From: a virus
Direction: 5' to 3' (one strand)
Length of the DNA: 54,721 bases
Virus record (IMG/VR): IMGVR_UViG_3300014962_000394
Location: 1 to 54,721 of that record
The notes below the pieces were generated by a model. That model did no database searches, was not told where the DNA came from, and saw only the letters and a program-made list of their open reading frames with translations. This document shows positions 175 to 52,531 of this stretch, one piece after another. A program made the position numbers and the translations under genes. The first letter of the stretch is position 1; the number at the start of each line of letters is the position of its first letter.

Positions 175-2937
175 TTATTTTTTTAATAATTTTTTTATGT
201 GAGGTATTACCATATCAGATGTTATACTTTTACTACATTCAAATTGTCTTTCTGTTCCTTTATGCTCTGGACACCAATTCCAATCTCCCTTATCAAACAT
301 ATGTTTAGCCCAACACCCGTTGCATACATCTTTATTTATTATACGTACCACGTCTTTTTTCATTTCAAGGTCTTCATCGGTAAATCCACTTATTAATATA
401 GTTGGAACATTTAATCCCCAAGCATACCAAGAAAGTCCACTGGATACTCCTATGAATAAATCACTACCTAATAAAATCTCTCCAATTTCTTCTAATGATT
501 TATTTTGAATGTGTATTACACCATTTGGTATTTTATTTCCCATATAACCATCTTCTTCTTTTGATAACAAATAAACATCATATCCTAAAGATTTAACATA
601 ATCTACTGTTTCTTGCCATCCTGTTGGATTATTCCAATATTTTGATTGGGCTGTTGAGTGCATTGCAATAGTTACATATGGTTTGTCTGTCTTATATGCA
701 ACCATATCTTTTATTTTTGGTTTAATTTCTTCATAATCTAAACCTAATATTTCAGTTGCAACTTTTTGTAATGGAATAGTGTTTGGAAGTGTTTTATTTT
801 TATTTATATTATAGACACCGTTATCAACAAATAGACCTAGACGATATTGAGCATATACATCTTGAACAGAATTTCCAGGTAATATAAATTCTACTTTAGG
901 ATATTTTGATTCAAACAGATATTTTAATGGCGTAGAAACTATAACATGGCAATCCCATTTTTTTCTAAATTCATCAACATAAGGAATCCAAGCAATAGTA
1001 TCTCCAAGTGAAAACGATTCAAAGGAAATAAATATTCTTTTTCCTGTTGGATTGAATTTGTGTGTAGTTTCTACTCCGGTAGAATCTGTTACAGAAATTT
1101 TCCAATTTATTTGATAAACTTTATCTGTTTTTGCCCATGTATTGTTATTCAATGTTGTTGTGTAATTTATTTCATCATTACCGTCTATAAATCTTACAAT
1201 ATATTGTTCTTTTAATTTTCCTAATATTTCAACCGTAGCACCATCAATAAAACTAAAATTTATAGAATTTGGTAAAATTTGATTTTCTTTTATTTTTTTA
1301 TTTTTCATTTCATCATTAATAGTTGTTATTGAATTATTTTTTCTAAAAGTTTCTATATCCATTCCTAAAAATTGATTGAATACTTCAACTCCATTGTAAT
1401 TTACATATACCGTCTCACCTTTTTTATATTTTCCAATATCTATAAATTTATATTCATATTGGTGTAATGTTGTAAATTGTTTATTTTTACCGTATCTATA
1501 TTCTATCAAATAATCTTCATTTGGCTTATAGTCAAAGAAACCTGAAATTAAACATAAGTACAAATCATCAAATTCATCAACACCTAAATATATTTGAAAT
1601 GCAGCATCATCCCTAAATACACCGTCTCTATTCCAAACTGCTTGTGTATTAAGTTCTTCATCATTAGCAATATATGGTGTTATGTAGATATTGTCTGTAT
1701 GTTTTTTTAATTCTCTTAAAAAAGATCTTTCAAGTTGAAATCCTTTTGGCCTTCCGTTGAAATATTCCCACTTTGAATTAATCTCATTTATAGCCTTTAA
1801 CGCAATATCTGTTTTTATTGAAAAAATATAAGTTGCTATGTACTCTGCTAAATCTTGACTCGATGATGAATGTTCGTGGTATTCATAAACAACTACATCA
1901 TAATTTTTTGATTTCTCTAAAAAAGCTTGTTTGTATTGAAAAACATCTACTATATTATCATATTCCATAAAGTGTATTCTTTTTTTACCAAGCATATCAC
2001 AAAATTTAAATGCCTTTTGCATCATTGTCCATATTGCATAATCGTGTTGAAACAAATTTTGTGATGTTAATTTGTGTGTTGCGTTTTGTGCCCACAAACC
2101 ACTTGAAACACCATACATATCGTATTCACTACTATGTAAAAGTGGATTTTCTTTATCAAATAGATAATAGTCCACCATATTTTGAATTTCTGGCTTTATA
2201 GGATAATGTGATACCAAAAGAATTGGAACAGGACTAAACTGTTTTAATTTTTTTATACATTCTATTAAATCGTTTTCTTTATTTTCTGTATCTGGCCATG
2301 TATCAACAACGAATATATCATCAGGAAATTCATCTTTATGTGTTATAGGTAATATATTATCTGTTTTAAATTTATTATTATTTTTTATACCACCCTTTAC
2401 ACCAAAAAAGTACAAATCTCCATTTTGTTCGTTATATTCAAATATACCATCTGGAAAATTATTTTCAAAATTTTTAATAGCTTTAACATCATGTTCTGTT
2501 AAATTTTTGTAATAGTGTGACCAATCTTCTGATATTTCTCTAAGCAAAGGTGCTGCCCAACTACCGTCTGAATTTACAGTTCCGTGTTCTGCTCTACCTA
2601 TCGAAGCACAAGTAAATATAAATGCTCCACCTGGTTTAAGCATACGAATTATATTATTTATTGTTTTTTCATAAAACATATCATGTTCAAATACTTCGGT
2701 AGAAATTATAGTGTCAAAATATTCATCTGGAGCATCATAAAGATGTCCAACACATACTATATCAACATTATTTCCCTCACCAACATCCAATCCAATGTAG
2801 TTACAGTTATTAAAAAGAAATCTATTGTTTCCATTTATATCCAATGATCCTATATCTAAAACTTTTTTATTTGTAAAATGTTCCGAAAAGTTATTTGACA
2901 TTCTAGTACAAAAATCTTGTTGAGCTTGGTGTGCCAT
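175..2937 (-). CDS. fusion of SAM methyltransferase and TibC-like (autotransporter heptosyltransferase family) glycosyltransferase
   Basis: This is a 920-residue multidomain protein. Residues about 1-130 form a class I SAM-dependent methyltransferase: VLDIGS is motif I and MLKPGGAFIFTCAS is a typical late strand. The middle part, about 190-650, is not recognised. The C-terminal ~270 residues resemble the TibC/BAHT heptosyltransferases: an ISFESFSLGDTIAWIPYV start, a GVSSGLSWYAWGL donor-site stretch, and four C-terminal cysteines (C872, C875, C889, C901). These cysteines match the metal-finger Cys pattern known from TibC. The family transfers heptose to Ser/Thr of surface proteins. In a phage the acceptor may be a fibre protein or a host glycan (inference). 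ATG with AAGG upstream; 3 bases after the preceding methyltransferase gene. Confidence 0.75.
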   Translation of the reverse strand: MAHQAQQDFCTRMSNNFSEHFTNKKVLDIGSLDINGNNRFLFNNCNYIGLDVGEGNNVDIVCVGHLYDAPDEYFDTIISTEVFEHDMFYEKTINNIIRMLKPGGAFIFTCASIGRAEHGTVNSDGSWAAPLLREISEDWSHYYKNLTEHDVKAIKNFENNFPDGIFEYNEQNGDLYFFGVKGGIKNNNKFKTDNILPITHKDEFPDDIFVVDTWPDTENKENDLIECIKKLKQFSPVPILLVSHYPIKPEIQNMVDYYLFDKENPLLHSSEYDMYGVSSGLWAQNATHKLTSQNLFQHDYAIWTMMQKAFKFCDMLGKKRIHFMEYDNIVDVFQYKQAFLEKSKNYDVVVYEYHEHSSSSQDLAEYIATYIFSIKTDIALKAINEINSKWEYFNGRPKGFQLERSFLRELKKHTDNIYITPYIANDEELNTQAVWNRDGVFRDDAAFQIYLGVDEFDDLYLCLISGFFDYKPNEDYLIEYRYGKNKQFTTLHQYEYKFIDIGKYKKGETVYVNYNGVEVFNQFLGMDIETFRKNNSITTINDEMKNKKIKENQILPNSINFSFIDGATVEILGKLKEQYIVRFIDGNDEINYTTTLNNNTWAKTDKVYQINWKISVTDSTGVETTHKFNPTGKRIFISFESFSLGDTIAWIPYVDEFRKKWDCHVIVSTPLKYLFESKYPKVEFILPGNSVQDVYAQYRLGLFVDNGVYNINKNKTLPNTIPLQKVATEILGLDYEEIKPKIKDMVAYKTDKPYVTIAMHSTAQSKYWNNPTGWQETVDYVKSLGYDVYLLSKEEDGYMGNKIPNGVIHIQNKSLEEIGEILLGSDLFIGVSSGLSWYAWGLNVPTILISGFTDEDLEMKKDVVRIINKDVCNGCWAKHMFDKGDWNWCPEHKGTERQFECSKSITSDMVIPHIKKLLKK

Positions 2938-2940
2938 ACA

Positions 2941-3606
2941 TTACCTTTTTGTTATTATTATTATTCCGTTTAAAAAATTTATAGACTCAATATCTTTTCT
3001 GATATTAATTTCTTTATCAATAATTTGTGGTATTAAAAAATCTTCTCTACGAGCGTGGACATTCCAAAAATTTTCTTGATATTCTCCCATAAAATTTATA
3101 TCATCAATTAAATTTTTAAAATATTCAACCATAGTGTTATCTTTTTTATATCCACCACCCCATTCTTCCCAATATGAACATGCAACATCTTCTACTACAT
3201 ATATTCCACCAGTTTTAACATAATCTATCAAATGTTTAAAACTAAAAATAACGTCTTCACTAATATGGGATCCATCATCCAATATCATATCAAACGGTCC
3301 CCATTTACTAACTACTTTTTTTAAAAATTCATAGTCATTTTGTGAACCAATTTCTACCCATATATTTTTAATTTTGTCTGTGTATCTATAACATTCTTCC
3401 ATTATATCTATACCAACAACTGTTGAGTTGGGATAATATTCTTTCCAACTCAATAATGATTGACCATTCCACACACCAATTTCCAAAATTTTTATTGGTT
3501 CCAATCTATCAAATGGAAAATATTTTTCATATTTTTCACAGTAGTTATGAATTTCGGATGATTTATCTGTTCCAAAATGTTTTGCTATTTTATCTAATGA
3601 TTGCAT
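2941..3606 (-). CDS. class I SAM-dependent O-methyltransferase (macrocin/MycE-type)
   Basis: A 221-residue protein with a complete class I methyltransferase core. ILEIGVWNGQSLLSW is the SAM-binding motif I, VVGIDIM is the acidic end of strand 2, and FDMILDDGSHISEDVIFSF followed by GGIYVVEDV is typical of the macrocin/mycinamicin sugar O-methyltransferases (TylE/MycE). Those enzymes methylate hydroxyls on sugars and use a metal bound by Asp residues near the DDGSH motif. The gene lies between two glycosyltransferase-methyltransferase fusions with gaps of 1 and 3 bases, so it probably methylates the sugar they add (inference). The exact substrate cannot be read from sequence. Confidence 0.8.
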   Translation of the reverse strand: MQSLDKIAKHFGTDKSSEIHNYCEKYEKYFPFDRLEPIKILEIGVWNGQSLLSWKEYYPNSTVVGIDIMEECYRYTDKIKNIWVEIGSQNDYEFLKKVVSKWGPFDMILDDGSHISEDVIFSFKHLIDYVKTGGIYVVEDVACSYWEEWGGGYKKDNTMVEYFKNLIDDINFMGEYQENFWNVHARREDFLIPQIIDKEINIRKDIESINFLNGIIIITKR

Positions 3607-3607
3607 A

Positions 3608-6415
3608 TTATTTCCAAAAATATATTAATTGCAAAGCATTATCAGTTCCACAAAAAGTAACAAATGAATTAAACCCAATAGTATTTAATCTTTGAATAAA
3701 ATTATGTCTCAATACTTCATCAAATTTTAAATGTTCATGGTGATATTCAACCGCAATATTTCTAACATTTTTTAAGTTGTCATCGGATATTCCATTGAGT
3801 GCCATGATTTCTGAACCCTCTATATCAACTTTTAGAAAATCTATTCTTGGTATTATACCCATCTCTAATATGTAATCTAATGTATAAACGTTTACATCAT
3901 ATTGATTTAATAATCCATGAGATTCTGTCCAAAGATTAGATCCACCAAGATGTGAGCTCTCGGTTAATTTCATTTTACCCAATTTATTACCAATAGCAGC
4001 ATTAAATACTATTGCACTCTTTGGTGCGTTTAATTTTAATATACTGTAATATCTTTTATCAGGTTCAAATGTTACTATTTTTTCTGCACCCATTTGGTGT
4101 GCATATCTTGTAAAAATTCCTATATTTCCACCTAAATCAACAACATAATCTCCTTTTTGAACTTTTACCATAGAATCAGCATCAGTCCTTGCAGGAAACT
4201 CATAGTCCCTCAAATTGTATATTTCATGGTATATTGCATAGTCCCATCCATAATTTACAGCAATATCTAATGTTCCGCCTGGAACACCATCTATTAATCC
4301 TAAATTTTTTATAGAATTTTTTGATGTATAAAAATATTTTGTGTCATGGAAATTATCATTCTTTTTTGAATAAATAAAATCTATCATTATATCTGCAAAT
4401 TCAAAGTCTTTATTACCATGAAAATATAATATGTTGCTTTTGTCTTTTGGTACTTTTTGCCAACCATATATGTAACCAAAGTTTTTTTGTTTTTTTGAGT
4501 TCCAAAATGATAAAAAATGTTCCATTGCTCTTTGGTCATTTGCCATTTTTACACCATTCCAATCGGAAACATCAAAATTACTCAAAGGTAAGAATTTATC
4601 AAATCCATATTTAGACCTTAAAAAATTATCTATACCTTCATCATTCCATTGTAATAAAGGACTGTATTCATCTAACGGCGTCTCTTTGTAAACTTTTAAT
4701 ATTTCATCGAACCACCATTTACATTCTTTATTATACACATACATACAAATATGTGCCATGGTGGACAGTCTTCCAACTCCATGTTTTTCATTTAATTTTT
4801 GATTAAATAATTGAGTTTGACTAACTCCATTTTTATCCGTATAATATCCTATAAATTCTTCTTGAATATGAACATCTGGAAGTGGATAATTTTCTATTTC
4901 AGAAAAATATTTTGATATGTCATCTATATTGTAATTAACAACAACATCACCATCAATCCAAATAAAATTTTCAAAATTTTCTTTTAAGGATTCAATACAC
5001 GCATATTGTTTCCAATACCATTTATCATGCTCGGAATATTTTGGTGTTTCCAATTTACGAGCTATTACATTTGGGTGATTAAACGGTACTTCACAATCTA
5101 TACCATATACTAAAATTTTTCTATCTGAAAATTTATTTAATGATATTACTAATTTTTCTATTAAACTCATGTAATTTAAATTACCACAAGTTACAAATGC
5201 AAAATCATCAATATATGTTTTTTGTTCCATTTTTATTTCCGGTTTTATTAACAGTTCGTCAATATATGATTTTGCTGTTATTGCAGCATTTTTCCAATCA
5301 AAATTTTTTCTTATAGATTTAGAATCTTCTATTGCCTTATTTTTATATTCTTCATAATTTTCAAAAACCATTCTCATTTTTAATTTTAAATCATCATAAT
5401 CTGGTTCACAAAAATTACCAGGAGCATCTTTTATCCAAGATTCATTGTTATCAACAGCGGCTGGTATTTCACCTTTTATTTTTATAGGTATTCCCTTTCC
5501 TTCTGCAAATTGTAACTGTGCTCCCCATTCTGAATATGTAGATGGTATTCCACAGGCCATTGCTTCTATTAGTGGTAAATTCCAACCTTCGCTTCTTGCA
5601 CAAGATAAAAATACATCTGCTGTATGTAGTAACTCAATATATTTTTCTTTTGATTGGTGATGTATTATTTTAATATTTTTATGATTTATACCAAATTTAT
5701 CAAGTCTTTGCTGTGTATTCGATAATCCATCTGTTGCAAAAGGATTATCAACGCTTATCAATAATTCTACATTTTCTTTTTCAGAAAAAGTATTAGCAAA
5801 TGATTGTATTATTTCCCTTATTGATTTTCTATAATCCCATCTACCAACCAATAAAAATCTAAAAGTTTTATTTTTTGTTTTTTGTTTTTTTGGTTTGTAT
5901 ATGTTAATATCAACCCCTTCAGGAACTACTTTTACTTTATGTTCTGATATACCCTGATTAATAGTACATTGTCTTTGCCATTCAGATGGAACCCATACTT
6001 GATCAAAACGTTTTAAATTTTCAAAAAATTGTTGTGGCTGTAATGTAGTCTCCCAAACGTTATATGCAATTTTTTTACCACTATAATTTTCATAAAAATA
6101 ATGATGATTATTGTCATTTAATATTATATGAACGTCAGGTGTACCTTCATTTTTATATGAAGTGTATAGGGGAAATTCACTATTACCATCAGGTGTTCTT
6201 AATGTTTGTTCAATCAACATTGTTTTTACATCATCAGTCAAACCAAATTCTTCATTGTGTGGTTCATCATTTTGATAACCTTTCCAATTTGGTCCAACCG
6301 ACCAATTTCTAACCTGCACTGGATAAATTGAATGTAACTCTTTAAAAAAATTTAATGCGTGAGTATTGTAGCCGGTATCACCTATCAACGAGGTGTGAGC
6401 TTTTATTATAGGCAT
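3608..6415 (-). CDS. trifunctional GT4 glycosyltransferase / GT-A-like transferase / FkbM methyltransferase
   Basis: A 935-residue fusion. Residues about 1-385 are a GT-B, GT4-type glycosyltransferase: FRFLLVGRWDYRKSIREII, then DVFLSCARSEGWNLPLIEAM with the family's E-x7-E-like donor site. Residues about 395-650 look like a second transferase of GT-A type, with an IWIDGDVVVN stretch holding a DxD metal motif. Residues about 700-935 are an FkbM-family methyltransferase (VVDLGGNIGIFTRYA, VTFEPDKRYY, IDFLKVDIEGSE). Three linked activities suggest stepwise building and capping of a glycan. It starts the glycan block and is followed after 1 base by an O-methyltransferase. Acceptor unknown. Confidence 0.8.
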   Translation of the reverse strand: MPIIKAHTSLIGDTGYNTHALNFFKELHSIYPVQVRNWSVGPNWKGYQNDEPHNEEFGLTDDVKTMLIEQTLRTPDGNSEFPLYTSYKNEGTPDVHIILNDNNHHYFYENYSGKKIAYNVWETTLQPQQFFENLKRFDQVWVPSEWQRQCTINQGISEHKVKVVPEGVDINIYKPKKQKTKNKTFRFLLVGRWDYRKSIREIIQSFANTFSEKENVELLISVDNPFATDGLSNTQQRLDKFGINHKNIKIIHHQSKEKYIELLHTADVFLSCARSEGWNLPLIEAMACGIPSTYSEWGAQLQFAEGKGIPIKIKGEIPAAVDNNESWIKDAPGNFCEPDYDDLKLKMRMVFENYEEYKNKAIEDSKSIRKNFDWKNAAITAKSYIDELLIKPEIKMEQKTYIDDFAFVTCGNLNYMSLIEKLVISLNKFSDRKILVYGIDCEVPFNHPNVIARKLETPKYSEHDKWYWKQYACIESLKENFENFIWIDGDVVVNYNIDDISKYFSEIENYPLPDVHIQEEFIGYYTDKNGVSQTQLFNQKLNEKHGVGRLSTMAHICMYVYNKECKWWFDEILKVYKETPLDEYSPLLQWNDEGIDNFLRSKYGFDKFLPLSNFDVSDWNGVKMANDQRAMEHFLSFWNSKKQKNFGYIYGWQKVPKDKSNILYFHGNKDFEFADIMIDFIYSKKNDNFHDTKYFYTSKNSIKNLGLIDGVPGGTLDIAVNYGWDYAIYHEIYNLRDYEFPARTDADSMVKVQKGDYVVDLGGNIGIFTRYAHQMGAEKIVTFEPDKRYYSILKLNAPKSAIVFNAAIGNKLGKMKLTESSHLGGSNLWTESHGLLNQYDVNVYTLDYILEMGIIPRIDFLKVDIEGSEIMALNGISDDNLKNVRNIAVEYHHEHLKFDEVLRHNFIQRLNTIGFNSFVTFCGTDNALQLIYFWK

Positions 6416-44540: not shown

Positions 44541-44571
44541 TTTGATCTTTGAAGAAAATGCCTTATATTTG
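44541..44571 (+). promoter_or_regulatory. host-type promoter, first of a pair
   Basis: TTTGATCTT (TTTG 44541-44544), then 19 bases, then TATATTTG (44564-44571). Nearly identical to the promoters at 44635, 45923, 54238 and 54432. Confidence 0.75.
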
Positions 44572-44634: not shown

Positions 44635-44665
44635 TTTGATCTTAAGAAAAAATGTCCTATATTTG
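44635..44665 (+). promoter_or_regulatory. host-type promoter, second of a pair
   Basis: TTTG (44635-44638) in TTTGATCTT, 19 bases, TATATTTG (44658-44665). Drives the conserved 110-residue gene; the leader then has ACAACAACCAC and AAGGA. Confidence 0.75.
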
Positions 44666-44705
44666 TAGAGTAAGAAAAACAACAACCACATTCAAGGATC
44701 TCAAA

Positions 44706-45038
44706 ATGAGAAAAGTAACATCCCTCGCCGTATCAAAATGGTTAATGCGTAAAAAATTCCGCAGAGACAATACACACACAGACGGCACAACATTATATCT
44801 ACATGGTCATGCTATTGCAAAGATTGATGATAGTGACGGAATGATATATGTTCGTTCTGCAGGTTGGGAGACTAAGACTACAAAAGAAAGATTGAACGGT
44901 ATTCCAGGTGTCCGTATTCATCAGAAAAATTGGATGTGGTTCTTAAATAACCAACCTTGGCCTCATAGCCAAAATTGGACACCAATCGGTAGATATTCTT
45001 CTGAAAATGGTGGTATGGTAATTACAAACCATATTTAA
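44706..45038 (+). CDS. conserved phage protein, unknown
   Basis: A 110-residue protein starting MRKVTSLAVSKWLM. AAGGA lies upstream; the frame's earlier ATG at 44652 would lie in the promoter. The phrases WLMRKKFRRDNTHTDG, LYLHGHAIAKIDD, RSAGWETKTTKERLNGIPGV and QKNWMWFLNNQPW recall a widespread small protein seen in many unrelated phages whose role I do not know. Strong promoter and early position suggest early expression. Confidence 0.65.
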   Translation: MRKVTSLAVSKWLMRKKFRRDNTHTDGTTLYLHGHAIAKIDDSDGMIYVRSAGWETKTTKERLNGIPGVRIHQKNWMWFLNNQPWPHSQNWTPIGRYSSENGGMVITNHI

Positions 45039-45651: not shown

Positions 45652-45938
45652 TTGATACCCCACAAGGAAAATGGTATACGGTTCCAGAAGTTGCAAAAAT
45701 TCTCGGATGTTCGTTTCAGTATGTTCGCCGTCTGACAAATGGAAGAACCCGAAAATACCAAAGTTACAAAATACATGAGAAACCAGTAGTTGATCAAACT
45801 CTTGTCCTCAAAGTCCAGAAAGAGAATCAGAAGAAAGTAAAATATCTGGTTCACGAAGATGCTGTTAAGTTGTTGGTAAATAAGAAATTATCAAAAATTT
45901 ACAAAAAACTTGAAAATAATGCTTTGATCTCTCAATAA
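45648..45938 (+). CDS. helix-turn-helix (MerR/excisionase-like) DNA-binding protein
   Basis: A 96-residue protein. Residues about 8-32, WYTVPEVAKILGCSFQYVRR, form a typical MerR/excisionase-type helix-turn-helix. The remainder is basic and helical (AVKLLVNKKLSKIYKKLENN). Likely a transcription regulator or DNA architectural protein. It overlaps the Lys-rich-tail protein gene by 4 bases, so the two are co-expressed. The promoter for the MoxR gene overlaps its last codons. Confidence 0.65.
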   Translation: MIDTPQGKWYTVPEVAKILGCSFQYVRRLTNGRTRKYQSYKIHEKPVVDQTLVLKVQKENQKKVKYLVHEDAVKLLVNKKLSKIYKKLENNALISQ

Positions 45939-45953
45939 AATGCCTTATATTTG
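45923..45953 (+). promoter_or_regulatory. host-type promoter for the MoxR ATPase gene
   Basis: TTTG (45923-45926) in TTTGATCTC, 19 bases, TATATTTG (45946-45953). It overlaps the 3' end of the helix-turn-helix gene. Confidence 0.75.
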
Positions 45954-45999
45954 TATATCTTAAAAAACAACCTTATTCATTTCTTACAGGAATTGTTCT

Positions 46000-46947
46000 A
46001 TGTCTAGAACCAAAACAACCAAAACCAAATCACAAAATTTGTCTGTTGCAGATATTGTTGCTACAGCCCCAACATTCCGTCCGGAATCTCTTATTCTATC
46101 GGACATAAAATGGAAATATCTTGTCCGTAGTGTTCTCCGTGGTCAAAATCTTATGATAACTGGTCCTGCCGGCTCCGGTAAAACTCTTGCCGTCCGAACC
46201 GTTGCAGATGCTATGGATAGACCGTTCTATTATTTCAATTTGGGTTCAACACAGGATCCAAGAACGGCTCTCATTGGAACCACTCATTTTGACAAAGAAA
46301 GTGGAACATATTTCAATCAATCAACCTTTATCAAGGCAATTCAAATTCCTGATGCAGTTATCCTGCTTGATGAATTGTCCCGTGCTCATCCAGAGGCATG
46401 GAATATCTTGATGACCGTTCTTGATGACGGACAAAGATATGTTCGTGTTGATGAAAGTCCTGATGCTGAAGTTATCAAGGTTGCACCTGGTGTTTCTTTC
46501 CTTGCTACCGCTAATATCGGTGTGGAATATACCTCAACCCGTGTAATTGACCGTGCTATTCAAGACCGTTTCCTCATTCTTGAAATGGACTTGTTGGACA
46601 AATCACAACAAGGCAAGCTAATCAATTATGTTTGTCCAAATCTTGATGAACAAACAGTTGATATTTTGACTTCAATCTATACACAAGTTTACAATGAGGT
46701 TCTTTCCGGTCACGGTAAAGTTTCAACCACTATATCAACCAGAACCATTCTTCGTGCCGCTGCTCTCATTTGTGACGGATTTACTATCGGTGAGGCACTT
46801 GAAGTGTGTGTATTCCCATATTTCACCGAAGAAGGTGGTGCTGATAGTGAGAGAACCTATGTTCGCCAGATTGTTCAAAAGTTTATTCCTATTGAAAGTC
46901 TAAACAATGACAATATGTTTGATGAAGGCGATACTGCTAAGAAATGA
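46000..46947 (+). CDS. MoxR-family AAA+ ATPase (CobS/CbbQ-like)
   Basis: A 315-residue AAA+ protein of the MoxR branch. Walker A is GPAGSGKTLAVRTVADAM (about residues 56-73), Walker B is AVILLDELSRAHPEAWNILM, sensor 1 is VSFLATANIG, and the arginine-finger stretch is RAIQDRFLILEMD. A pore-loop-like FNLGSTQDPRTALIG follows the first helix. MoxR ATPases act with VWA-domain partners as chaperones or metal-insertion machines; the next gene encodes exactly such a partner. Strong host-type promoter; AGGA before the ATG. Codon use looks richer in C and G than in the virion genes. Confidence 0.88.
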   Translation: MSRTKTTKTKSQNLSVADIVATAPTFRPESLILSDIKWKYLVRSVLRGQNLMITGPAGSGKTLAVRTVADAMDRPFYYFNLGSTQDPRTALIGTTHFDKESGTYFNQSTFIKAIQIPDAVILLDELSRAHPEAWNILMTVLDDGQRYVRVDESPDAEVIKVAPGVSFLATANIGVEYTSTRVIDRAIQDRFLILEMDLLDKSQQGKLINYVCPNLDEQTVDILTSIYTQVYNEVLSGHGKVSTTISTRTILRAAALICDGFTIGEALEVCVFPYFTEEGGADSERTYVRQIVQKFIPIESLNNDNMFDEGDTAKK

Positions 46948-46970
46948 AGATATGTTATTCACAAATAGTA

Positions 46971-46992
46971 GTGTGGGGGTTCGCCCCCGCAC
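46971..46992 (+). terminator. GC-rich hairpin with TTCG tetraloop between the MoxR and VWA genes
   Basis: GTGTGGGGG (46971-46979) pairs with CCCCCGCAC (46984-46992) around TTCG, giving nine pairs closed by an unusually stable tetraloop. A weak T-rich stretch follows. It could be a partial terminator that sets the ratio of the two proteins, or an mRNA stabiliser. Confidence 0.6.
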
Positions 46993-46998
46993 TGCTTT

Positions 46999-47006
46999 AT
47001 ATTTAT
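46999..47006 (+). promoter_or_regulatory. candidate phage promoter octamer ATATTTAT before the VWA gene
   Basis: ATATTTAT lies 35 bases upstream of the VWA gene and just after the TTCG hairpin, in coding orientation. It lacks a -33 box of the host type. Confidence 0.35.
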
Positions 47007-47041
47007 AGAAACAACCAATAACAACCATAAAGGGATATGTA

Positions 47042-49189
47042 ATGAGTAAATTCAAAAAATCAGTAAAGAGTATTCTTGCAGAAGCAAGTGCCAGAACAAA
47101 TCAATTTTGGAACAAATATGCTTCCGATTATACAGACGAGTATTCAGCCGGAACCAATTACTGGCTCAAAGGTAGTTTGTTTGACAAGAAGGAATCCATG
47201 TTCAAAGATGAATATGGTTTCAAAGAAGAAAAACATGACTATTTTGCACTTGCACAATACCAACGAGCCGTTGCAAACTTTGTTCATATTATGACCGGTG
47301 ATCCTAAAATTCGTGTCCAATACAACAACAATGGTCAAAATATGACCGATGGACAAACGGTTCACCTTTCTGCATCCGTAAATGAAAAAGACTTTGATTC
47401 AAATGTTGGTCTTGCCCTCCATGAGAGTAGTCACATTCTCTATACAGACATGAAAAAGTTTCGTGACGCAGTTGCTGACTTGGTATATTATTCACATCAA
47501 CACTTGACCGATGAAAATGGTAATCACATTTTTGACAGTCAAGAACAAGTAGATAAATTGTTTGAAGGGTATCGCGATAAACAAGAATTTTTCAAATCTG
47601 TTGTCAATATCATCGAAGACTTGTATATTGATGCCATGACATATACTGCTGCTCCCGGCTATCGTATTTATTACAAAGCTCTTTACAACAAGTTTTTTGG
47701 TGACGAAAAAGTTACTCGCGGTTTTTATGATGAAGAATTTATGAAACCTACCGCTCACAATTATCTTTTTCACCTATGTAATTTCCGCAGTCCATACCGC
47801 AATCTAAATGCTCTCCCTGCATTGCAATTAGTTTGGGACACACTTGACTTGCAGAACATTCGTAGATTGAAAACAGATGAAGACCGTATCAAACTTTCTG
47901 AAAGAATTGCAGGTATCATTCTCAAACAATTGAGTGAATTACCCAAAGACGATGATACTGACAAAGAACCTATTGACCAAGACGGCGATGAAGGAGGCGT
48001 AGGCGATGGTGAAGGTTATGACCATGAACCAATAGGTGGCAATCCTGGTCCTCAAATACCTGATGGCGTTAGTGACAAACCACTAACAGACAAACAGAGA
48101 GAACAAATTGAAAAGTTGTTCAAGAAACAATTAGACCTTATCAACGGTGAAACCAAAAAAACAAAATTGACAAAGGCAGAGGCACAAAAAGTTGATGCTA
48201 TAACATCGGTAGATTTCGATGAAGAAATTGTTGCAAGAAATTTTGTTGATGACTATGGTAGATTTAATCCACGCGGTGTCAAAACTTTTATTGTCCGTAA
48301 TATCAATAAAACATTCATGGGTAGTGAAGTATCCGCACCATTCGGTGTGAGATCATACGGTTGGAAAAGACGCGATATATCCAGATATATTGCTCTCGGT
48401 AAATTACTTGCTAAGAAGTTACAAATTCGTAATGAAGAAAGAGTAACTACATCTACCCGTCTCAAATCTGGCAGAATTGATGCAAGATTGTTACATGAAA
48501 TTGGTAGTAGTAATTATGACATATTCAAACAAATTACTATTCACGAATATCAACCGTCATATATTCACCTGTCCATTGACCAATCAGGTTCAATGAATGG
48601 TGACAAGTTTGAAGAATCAGTAAAACTTGCGGTTATGTTTGCAGTTGCTGCTAAACAAATCAAAAATCTTCATGTTGTTGTTAGTGCTCGTTCTGTATAT
48701 TCAGACAATTATTCGTATGGTAGAGGTAAATCAACAATGCATGATACGCCATATCTTATTTACCTATACGATTCCAACAAACATAACCTTGCTCATATCC
48801 GTGATGTGTTTGAAACTATACAGACAACAAACACAACACCAGAAGGACTTTGTTTTGAGGCAATCATGGGTGAAATTATGAAACAATCTGCTAATACGGA
48901 TGCTTACTTTATCAACCTATGTGACGGCCAACCATTCATGGTAAATGATAAAACACAATTTGCTTATCGCGGACAAGCAGCTCAACAACACTCCAGAAAA
49001 CAAGTTGAGCGTATGCGTGCTCGTGGTATCAATGTCCTCACATATTTCATCGGTAGTAGATACGAATTTCAAGATGTTGTGAATACATACAAGACAAATT
49101 GTGTTCATCTAAACCGTGCCGATGAAATTCCAAAAGTTGTTAAGGCCATGAATGCCGAACTACTATCTGCGGCTAAAAAGAATGGTTAA
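47042..49189 (+). CDS. VWA-domain protein with putative metallopeptidase N-terminus (CobT/DUF2201-like)
   Basis: A 715-residue partner of the MoxR ATPase. The N-terminal part has a zincin-like motif LALHESSHILYTDM (near residue 127) and a downstream NIIEDLYIDAM, the third-ligand region seen in DUF2201-type domains. A middle acidic linker (DDDTDKEPIDQDGDEGG) is followed by the C-terminal VWA domain with MIDAS DQSGSMNG near 513 and later NLCDGQPF. In the known CobS-CobT pair such a protein chelates cobalt, but no other cobalamin gene is present here. It is probably a substrate-remodelling or proteolytic complex with the ATPase. AAAGGG precedes the ATG. Confidence 0.85.
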   Translation: MSKFKKSVKSILAEASARTNQFWNKYASDYTDEYSAGTNYWLKGSLFDKKESMFKDEYGFKEEKHDYFALAQYQRAVANFVHIMTGDPKIRVQYNNNGQNMTDGQTVHLSASVNEKDFDSNVGLALHESSHILYTDMKKFRDAVADLVYYSHQHLTDENGNHIFDSQEQVDKLFEGYRDKQEFFKSVVNIIEDLYIDAMTYTAAPGYRIYYKALYNKFFGDEKVTRGFYDEEFMKPTAHNYLFHLCNFRSPYRNLNALPALQLVWDTLDLQNIRRLKTDEDRIKLSERIAGIILKQLSELPKDDDTDKEPIDQDGDEGGVGDGEGYDHEPIGGNPGPQIPDGVSDKPLTDKQREQIEKLFKKQLDLINGETKKTKLTKAEAQKVDAITSVDFDEEIVARNFVDDYGRFNPRGVKTFIVRNINKTFMGSEVSAPFGVRSYGWKRRDISRYIALGKLLAKKLQIRNEERVTTSTRLKSGRIDARLLHEIGSSNYDIFKQITIHEYQPSYIHLSIDQSGSMNGDKFEESVKLAVMFAVAAKQIKNLHVVVSARSVYSDNYSYGRGKSTMHDTPYLIYLYDSNKHNLAHIRDVFETIQTTNTTPEGLCFEAIMGEIMKQSANTDAYFINLCDGQPFMVNDKTQFAYRGQAAQQHSRKQVERMRARGINVLTYFIGSRYEFQDVVNTYKTNCVHLNRADEIPKVVKAMNAELLSAAKKNG

Positions 49190-49658
49190 AACAAAATATC
49201 TCAAACGATTTGCAATGGCTCCGCCGGTTAAACCAATACCGGCGGAAACCATGTATCTTTCCAAGAACAAAGTGGATGATGAAACAATTGATACCATAGT
49301 TGATTATACAATGGAATGGTGTATAGAAAAATTTGGTATCAATGAACATAGAGGTAATCCGTATGTTTGTTGGGAATGGAATAGTCTTGATGGTGAAGAG
49401 GATAAAGATTGTCTTGCATTCTTCGATGACGATGACAATACAATTATCATTAGAGTTCGTGGTCATAGAACTGTAAAAAACTTTGTCAAAACTCTTATAC
49501 ACGAATACATCCATTACCTACAACCTGCAAAGGGCGGTTGGTATGAAAGATGGGAAGAACAATATGGGTATGAGAAGAACCCGTATGAAATTGAAGCATA
49601 CTATTTGAGTGACTTGTATGCACAAACCGCAACCAATTTTGTTATGGAAAAAATATAA
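49182..49658 (+). CDS. HExxH metallopeptidase-like protein
   Basis: A 158-residue protein taken from ATG 49182, overlapping the VWA stop by 8 bases; the frame's earlier ATG at 49152 lies deeper in that gene, and ATG 49215 is a further option. TLIHEYIHYLQPAKGGWYER is a clear HExxH zinc motif, and YEIEAYYLSDLYAQ supplies a likely downstream Glu ligand. An acidic DNTIIIRVRGHRTVKNFV strand lies before it. Its coupling to the MoxR/VWA genes makes it the third component of one operon. Family not recognised beyond the zincin motif. Confidence 0.7.
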   Translation: MVKTKYLKRFAMAPPVKPIPAETMYLSKNKVDDETIDTIVDYTMEWCIEKFGINEHRGNPYVCWEWNSLDGEEDKDCLAFFDDDDNTIIIRVRGHRTVKNFVKTLIHEYIHYLQPAKGGWYERWEEQYGYEKNPYEIEAYYLSDLYAQTATNFVMEKI

Positions 49659-51412: not shown

Positions 51413-51641
51413 TAATATATCATTCCCCCATCTATATGAATTGATAACGGCAGATGGCGAAACGTTTTGGATAAATGTATCTAATATAGATAAGATAGAA
51501 TACTCCAGACAAAGTGCAAATTGGTGTAATGTATATTTAAAAGACAACACAACGCCATTTCTAATTAAGAATACACCAGATGAATTTTATGAACTGATAA
51601 TAGAAGATTATTTAAGATTGAAAGAAAGGTATCGTCTATGA
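51405..51641 (+). CDS. small conserved-looking protein, unknown
   Basis: A 78-residue protein from ATG 51405, with a strong GAGGAGG site upstream that decides the start over an earlier ATG at 51372. The pattern LYELITADGETFWINVSNID then KIEYS resembles short FlbD/SH3-like strand folds, but I would not assign it. It overlaps rmlA by 4 bases (ATGA). Confidence 0.55.
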   Translation: MNNNISFPHLYELITADGETFWINVSNIDKIEYSRQSANWCNVYLKDNTTPFLIKNTPDEFYELIIEDYLRLKERYRL

Positions 51642-52531
51642 AAAAAACAAAAGGGATAATACTTGCAGGTGGACTTGGTACAAGATTATATCCTGCAACG
51701 TCTGTGGCGAACAAACAATTGTTACCCATACATGATAAACCAATGATATATTATCCACTCGCCACATTGATGCTTGCAGGTATCAGGGACATTATGATAA
51801 TATCAACTCCAGTAGATATTCATAATTTTGAAAGAGTATTGGGAAGTGGTAGAGATATTGGTCTGAATATAACCTATGAGATACAATATGAACCAAAAGG
51901 AATATCTGATTCATTCATCATAGGTCAAAAATTTATAGGTGAAGACCAAGTTTGTCTGATACTCGGTGATAATCTTTTCTATGGTAAATTAGATTTCCTA
52001 CGAAAGGCAATCAACGAAAATAGGGGTGGAACTGTATTTGGTTATGAAGTCAAAGACCCACACCGCTACGGTATCGTAGAGTTTGATAGTGATAACCGTG
52101 TCGTTTCTATTGAAGAAAAACCAAAAGAACCCAAATCAAACTACGCCATACCCGGCCTATACATTTTTGATTCCCATGTCGTTGGTATAGCCAAATCAAT
52201 AGAACCGTCAGCGAGGGGTGAATTAGAAATCACGGATGTACAAAGGGCATACCTTGATAAAGGATGTTTAGATGTAGTAAAGATGGGTAGAGGTATCACA
52301 TGGCTTGACACCGGAACACCAGAGAGTTTAATTGAAGCAAGCCAGTTCATCAGTATAATAGAAAACAGACAAAATCTTAAAGTTGCTTGTCTTGAAGAAA
52401 TTTCTCTTGATATGGGATATATTACAACAACAGAATATAAAAAATTATTGTCATATATGCCCAAATCACCATATAAAGATTATTGTCAGAAAATTTTATT
52501 AGACAGAACTAATATATCAAGAAATGATTAA
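51638..52531 (+). CDS. rmlA: glucose-1-phosphate thymidylyltransferase
   Basis: A 297-residue RmlA. GIILAGGLGTRLYPATSVAN is the nucleotide-binding signature, KQLLPIHDKPMIYYPLATLM follows, then ILGDNLFYG, GYEVKDPHRYGIVEF, EEKPKEPKSNYAIPGLYIFD and RGITWLDTGTPESLIEASQF, all family landmarks. It makes dTDP-glucose from glucose-1-phosphate and dTTP, the first step to dTDP-rhamnose and other deoxysugars. No RmlB/C/D is in view; the product may feed host enzymes or the glycosyltransferases at the left end of the window. Length matches the family. Confidence 0.93.
   Translation: MKKTKGIILAGGLGTRLYPATSVANKQLLPIHDKPMIYYPLATLMLAGIRDIMIISTPVDIHNFERVLGSGRDIGLNITYEIQYEPKGISDSFIIGQKFIGEDQVCLILGDNLFYGKLDFLRKAINENRGGTVFGYEVKDPHRYGIVEFDSDNRVVSIEEKPKEPKSNYAIPGLYIFDSHVVGIAKSIEPSARGELEITDVQRAYLDKGCLDVVKMGRGITWLDTGTPESLIEASQFISIIENRQNLKVACLEEISLDMGYITTTEYKKLLSYMPKSPYKDYCQKILLDRTNISRND

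Follow-up and report, generated by a model that had tools for sequence, protein, structure and literature searches.

A co-inherited MoxR and HExxH-vWA gene pair of phages as a possible ATP-dependent remodelling protease

The virus sequence analysed here (IMG/VR record IMGVR_UViG_3300014962_000394; all 54,721 nucleotides, hereafter the window) carries three consecutive plus-strand genes, for a MoxR-type ATPase, a vWA protein with an HExxH motif and a small HExxH protein (Table 1), which raises the question of whether they encode one machine and what such a machine would act on. A sequence-only reading had proposed that the ATPase delivers a substrate to two zinc peptidases, perhaps against a host defence or for virion maturation. 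The part of this proposal that holds is the pair of MoxR and HExxH-vWA genes, which is conserved and co-inherited, whereas the third protein is not a fixed part of it.

Table 1. Features of the three-gene locus in the window, with the residues that mark each protein domain
Feature	Position	Strand	Details
Promoter-like element TTGATC-N16-TATATTTG	45924..45953	+	46 bp before MoxR start codon
MoxR-type AAA+ ATPase	46000..46947	+	315 aa; Pfam AAA_5 E 4e-16
Terminator-like hairpin	46967..46996	+	13-bp stem, TTCG loop, GC-rich; between MoxR and vWA genes
HExxH-vWA protein	47042..49189	+	715 aa; HESSH 127-131, DQSGSM MIDAS 513-518
Zincin-like domain, N-terminal part of HExxH-vWA protein			H127, E128, H131, N189, E192, D193
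vWA/MIDAS domain, C-terminal part of HExxH-vWA protein			D513, S515, S517, T599, D628
Small HExxH protein, minigluzincin-like	49182..49658	+	158 aa; H107, E108, H111, E136

The open reading frames and motifs claimed for the three genes were confirmed, as was the overlap of the last two, which share 8 bases (49182-49189). The MoxR gene, whose Pfam AAA_5 match lies above the cut-off, has the Walker A motif GPAGSGKT and the Walker B motif LLDEL, and in sequence comparison midasin, NorQ, CbbQ and CobS are among the closest solved relatives of its protein. The length of the third protein is counted from the ATG at 49182, which places its HEYIH at residues 107-111; a longer mechanical open reading frame begins at 49152. 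Pairwise comparisons with relatives gave dN/dS values of 0.09-0.25 for the MoxR gene, 0.14-0.31 for the HExxH-vWA gene and 0.02-0.30 for the third gene, and this purifying selection (0.02-0.31 overall) indicates that all three are maintained. Elsewhere in the window, a plus-strand gene at 51638-52531 encodes a nucleotidyltransferase (NTP_transferase, E 2.6e-64) that resembles glucose-1-phosphate thymidylyltransferase, and large proteins with glycosyltransferase and methyltransferase domains are encoded on the minus strand at 175-6415.

No family in Pfam, NCBIfam or PHROGs matched the HExxH-vWA protein above the cut-off. Its own profile found 436 related viral stretches, the best 80 of which were retained, and among 74 distinct homologues, reaching to gut Bacteroides-type phages at 18-20% identity, the six residues of the zincin-like domain are invariant, as are the MIDAS residues D513, S515, S517 and D628, with T599 kept in 72 of the 74. 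Loss of the HExxH residues in homologues, which had been named beforehand as a sign against the zinc peptidase proposal, was seen in none of these 74, and the invariance of the motifs goes beyond chance both here and in the 25 homologues of the third protein. E192 is the presumed third zinc ligand. When the predicted model (mean pLDDT 76.7) was compared with the PDB by Foldseek, the best match was the NorD vWA domain of the NorQ-NorD complex (E 2.2e-8); only the vWA half was matched, and the N-terminal half found no counterpart among solved zincins, so that its zincin fold is read from the motif and the motif spacing. Some phage relatives, such as that of Thermus P74-26, lack HExxH whereas the Gordonia Sticker17 relative has it, and judged by these sequences the motif is the mark of one branch within a wider viral MoxR-vWA group.

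The two genes travel together. MoxR was found in 38 of 48 vWA-bearing virus records, including all 17 of those of at least 100 kb, and the ten records in which it was not found are all of 71 kb or less, most of them fragments. Both genes lie on the same strand, in either order, in all 53 distinct loci that hold both inside the fetched stretch, and their spacing is below 600 bp in 41 of these. The pairwise distance matrices of MoxR and vWA correlate with r = 0.91 (0 of 1000 permutations as high), a value that partly reflects the common ancestry of whole genomes. These observations support a conserved, co-inherited pair.

Pairs of this kind occur widely among large phages and have been described before. 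A 2021 report in Viruses (PMC7824862) describes, for jumbo phages of group 2.2, a MoxR ATPase accompanied by a vWA protein that has a metallopeptidase fused to its N-terminus, and the two-gene architecture of ASV44729.1/ASV44728.2 is by that description like the pair in the window, which differs in having a clade-specific third gene beside it and relatives with a replication-type neighbourhood. Tailed viruses commonly carry cobST, and in cyanophages the cobT gene usually goes under the annotation "peptidase" (PMC8651126). The "peptidase" of the cyanophages S-PM2 and P-RSM6 carries HEVGH followed by N-x2-ED-x-RI (N-x2-EDARI), has a C-terminal DWSGS MIDAS and adjoins CobS/MoxR, the two genes being S-PM2p119/p120 in S-PM2. 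Its N-terminal half matches the HExxH-vWA family with a probability of 94-96% (E of about 1e-7 to 1e-8 in one comparison), although the protein is too divergent for tblastn and the vWA halves match weakly (E 7e-4). From the jumbo-phage report and this N-terminal match we take the pair in the window to belong to the described kind. Within the window, 44652-45038 (plus strand) matches the Kyanoviridae Gp96 family (PF23790, E 2.2e-11), which ties this phage to the group of T4-like cyanophages.

The third protein has, by its predicted model (mean pLDDT 83.6) and alignment, a compact HExxH fold with a downstream Glu, similar to that of minigluzincins. Its HEYxHxxQ...PxE signature is invariant in 25 aligned homologues, and from this invariance we infer that E136 is the downstream Glu ligand. 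The best PDB match of the model is selecase (probability 1.00, E 7.6e-3); the minigluzincins selecase and jannalysin of Methanocaldococcus share the small single-domain HExxH fold but come from other hosts, give no sequence-family match and reach a modest E-value. Whether MoxR serves both zinc peptidases, as a three-part machine would require, can be judged from the linkage of this gene. In the window its reading frame overlaps that of the vWA gene, it adjoins the pair in L005-L010, L014-L017 and L160, and purifying selection acts on all three genes, all of which would fit such a machine. Outside this closest clade, however, the gene is distant or absent, and conservation of the trio in related phages, which the sequence-only reading had named as a check, gives way in most of them to a third gene that is missing or unlinked. 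The complete genome of Microcystis phage Mel-JY01 has it on the minus strand at 127893-128477, roughly 20 kb away from the vWA gene (147282), which shares the plus strand with MoxR (132581). It is likewise unlinked to the pair in L018, a strong match (E < 1e-10) occurs in just 6 of the 17 records of at least 100 kb, where additional weak matches span short pieces of longer frames, and the wider family occurs in loci L095-L155 with no vWA gene within the fetched flanks. We therefore reject the trio machine, which failed on the linkage in Mel-JY01, L018 and most other relatives and which we consider quite improbable. The best explanation of these sequence comparisons appears to be that the third gene, small and metallopeptidase-like, is separate from the pair and acquired its linkage in one clade.

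The locus has putative expression signals of its own. The element upstream of MoxR fits the Bacteroidota type TTG-N19-TAnnTTTG by consensus match and is a predicted promoter; it occurs five times in exact form, at 44542, 44636, 45924, 54239 and 54433, each time on the plus strand. At up to two mismatches the window holds 11 matches against 2.9 expected, a number that none of 100 shuffles reached. L009, L014 and L015 have the element at the same position before MoxR, and the family also precedes small plus-strand genes. The form of the element suggests a Bacteroidota host. Beside these elements we note L160, a Flavobacteriaceae-labelled MAG contig that carries the trio; it is the best of four loci from a scan of genome contigs, which are either host genes or phage contigs. 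The hairpin between the MoxR and vWA genes is retained in L005, L006, L007 and L009 with arms that differ in sequence, and could separate or uncouple the transcription of the two genes.

If the pair were a chaperone-protease of virion assembly or maturation, the MoxR-vWA part would assemble structural proteins and the peptidase domain would trim them. Such a role was proposed for the same architecture in jumbo phages on the model of the ATV tail chaperones p618/p892 (PMC7824862), a weak structural similarity to ATV ORF892 was seen (E 2.2e-3), and the window has baseplate and tape-measure genes on its minus strand. The pair lies on the opposite strand from this tail cluster, however, and behind its own promoter-like element. 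Strand by itself cannot settle the timing, because the minus-strand cluster carries replication genes as well as the tail genes. T4-like cyanophages place the related pair between gp46 and gp45 (in S-PM2 the order is gp46, peptidase, CobS, gp45), BS162P1 has a DNA polymerase close to it, and several other relatives have recombination, ligase or thymidylate synthase genes beside it. Twenty neighbouring proteins from relatives were searched, and the nine with a known-function family (the other 11 had none) were mostly of nucleic-acid metabolism: UvsX, an ssDNA-binding protein, an exonuclease, two thymidylate synthases, two DNA ligases and an HNH endonuclease, with one esterase besides. This is a small sample, and gene neighbourhood bears on function indirectly. 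The replication and recombination neighbours in several distant relatives, together with the separate promoter-like element, favour a replication-phase role over the virion maturation that had been suggested at the outset; we regard the latter as unlikely, and the more probable setting of the pair is the replication phase. A takeover or counter-defence protease directed at a host protein would also suit a pair behind its own promoter-like element, of a family shared with small plus-strand genes. Nevertheless, no link to a defence system was found, the PADLOC matches being generic ATPase similarity only, and conservation as broad as this would be more in keeping with a core function than with a weapon against particular hosts, so that we think this highly improbable.

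That the pair represents the cobaltochelatase subunits CobS and CobT, boosting host cobalamin synthesis together with the host CobN, deserves attention since such a boost has been proposed for viral cobST (PMC8651126). CobS-CobT resembles the window pair in consisting of a MoxR-type ATPase and a MIDAS vWA protein with related vWA halves: comparison of the CobT vWA profile with the vWA half gave a probability of 94% (E 1.5e-7), and the solved CobT matches this half by sequence (E 0.0026). It differs in that the HExxH motif, invariant in the 74 phage homologues, is missing from three cellular CobT proteins that have the MIDAS, and in that the MoxR gene scores 24.6 bits with the CobS equivalog model against a cut-off of 558.55. 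The earlier statement that no further cobalamin gene lies in the window is borne out as regards CobN (PF02514); none was found in the window or in eight relatives, and a CobN may still be encoded by the host. We rejected the CobST reading on these three grounds, namely true CobT without HExxH, a CobS score below the cut-off and no CobN in the window or the eight relatives. The first and last of these make a cobalamin role of the pair unlikely, and we attach very little probability indeed to it. The N-terminal halves of CobT and the HExxH-vWA protein gave a colinear but non-significant profile alignment (E 0.059, against 0.12-0.88 in five column shuffles), and we have considered that the CobT N-terminus may be a dead version of the HExxH-vWA N-terminal domain. 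The invariant zinc-protease site and the lack of CobN in the searched records argue for a protein-remodelling protease, at least in this branch.

At about even confidence, we propose that the MoxR and HExxH-vWA proteins together make up a two-gene ATP-dependent remodelling protease of the NorQ-NorD type, probably of the replication phase, with the third gene separate. In NorQ-NorD a MoxR hexamer is plugged by the vWA domain, and the MIDAS contacts the substrate (PMC9976466). Because the vWA half best matches the NorD vWA, we infer a similar coupling, in which MoxR would assemble an ATPase ring and the vWA domain of the second gene would engage the ring pore. ATP hydrolysis would then shift the vWA/MIDAS adaptor, which would take hold of a substrate protein at an acidic site and remodel it, and the zincin domain of the same chain, presumably with a bound zinc, would cut or open this substrate. 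The machine would probably act during the replication phase, not on the virion. NorQ-NorD of Paracoccus and CbbQ-CbbO share with the window pair a MoxR ATPase and a vWA adaptor, and their substrates are known (NO reductase and Rubisco). The literature examined describes no peptidase function for the N-terminal domains of their vWA partners, and the zincin would take the place of the NorD N-terminal targeting domain.

A further-reaching possibility, which we hold tentatively and well short of even confidence, is that the pair constitutes a phage-specific two-chain ATP-dependent zinc protease acting on replication-phase proteins and widely mistaken for cobalamin genes, and that in one clade another zinc peptidase, dedicated to it, was added. 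Ecological surveys count the cobS/cobT genes of phages among the auxiliary genes for vitamin B12, and a protease reading of the pair would bear on the annotation of many viral genomes.
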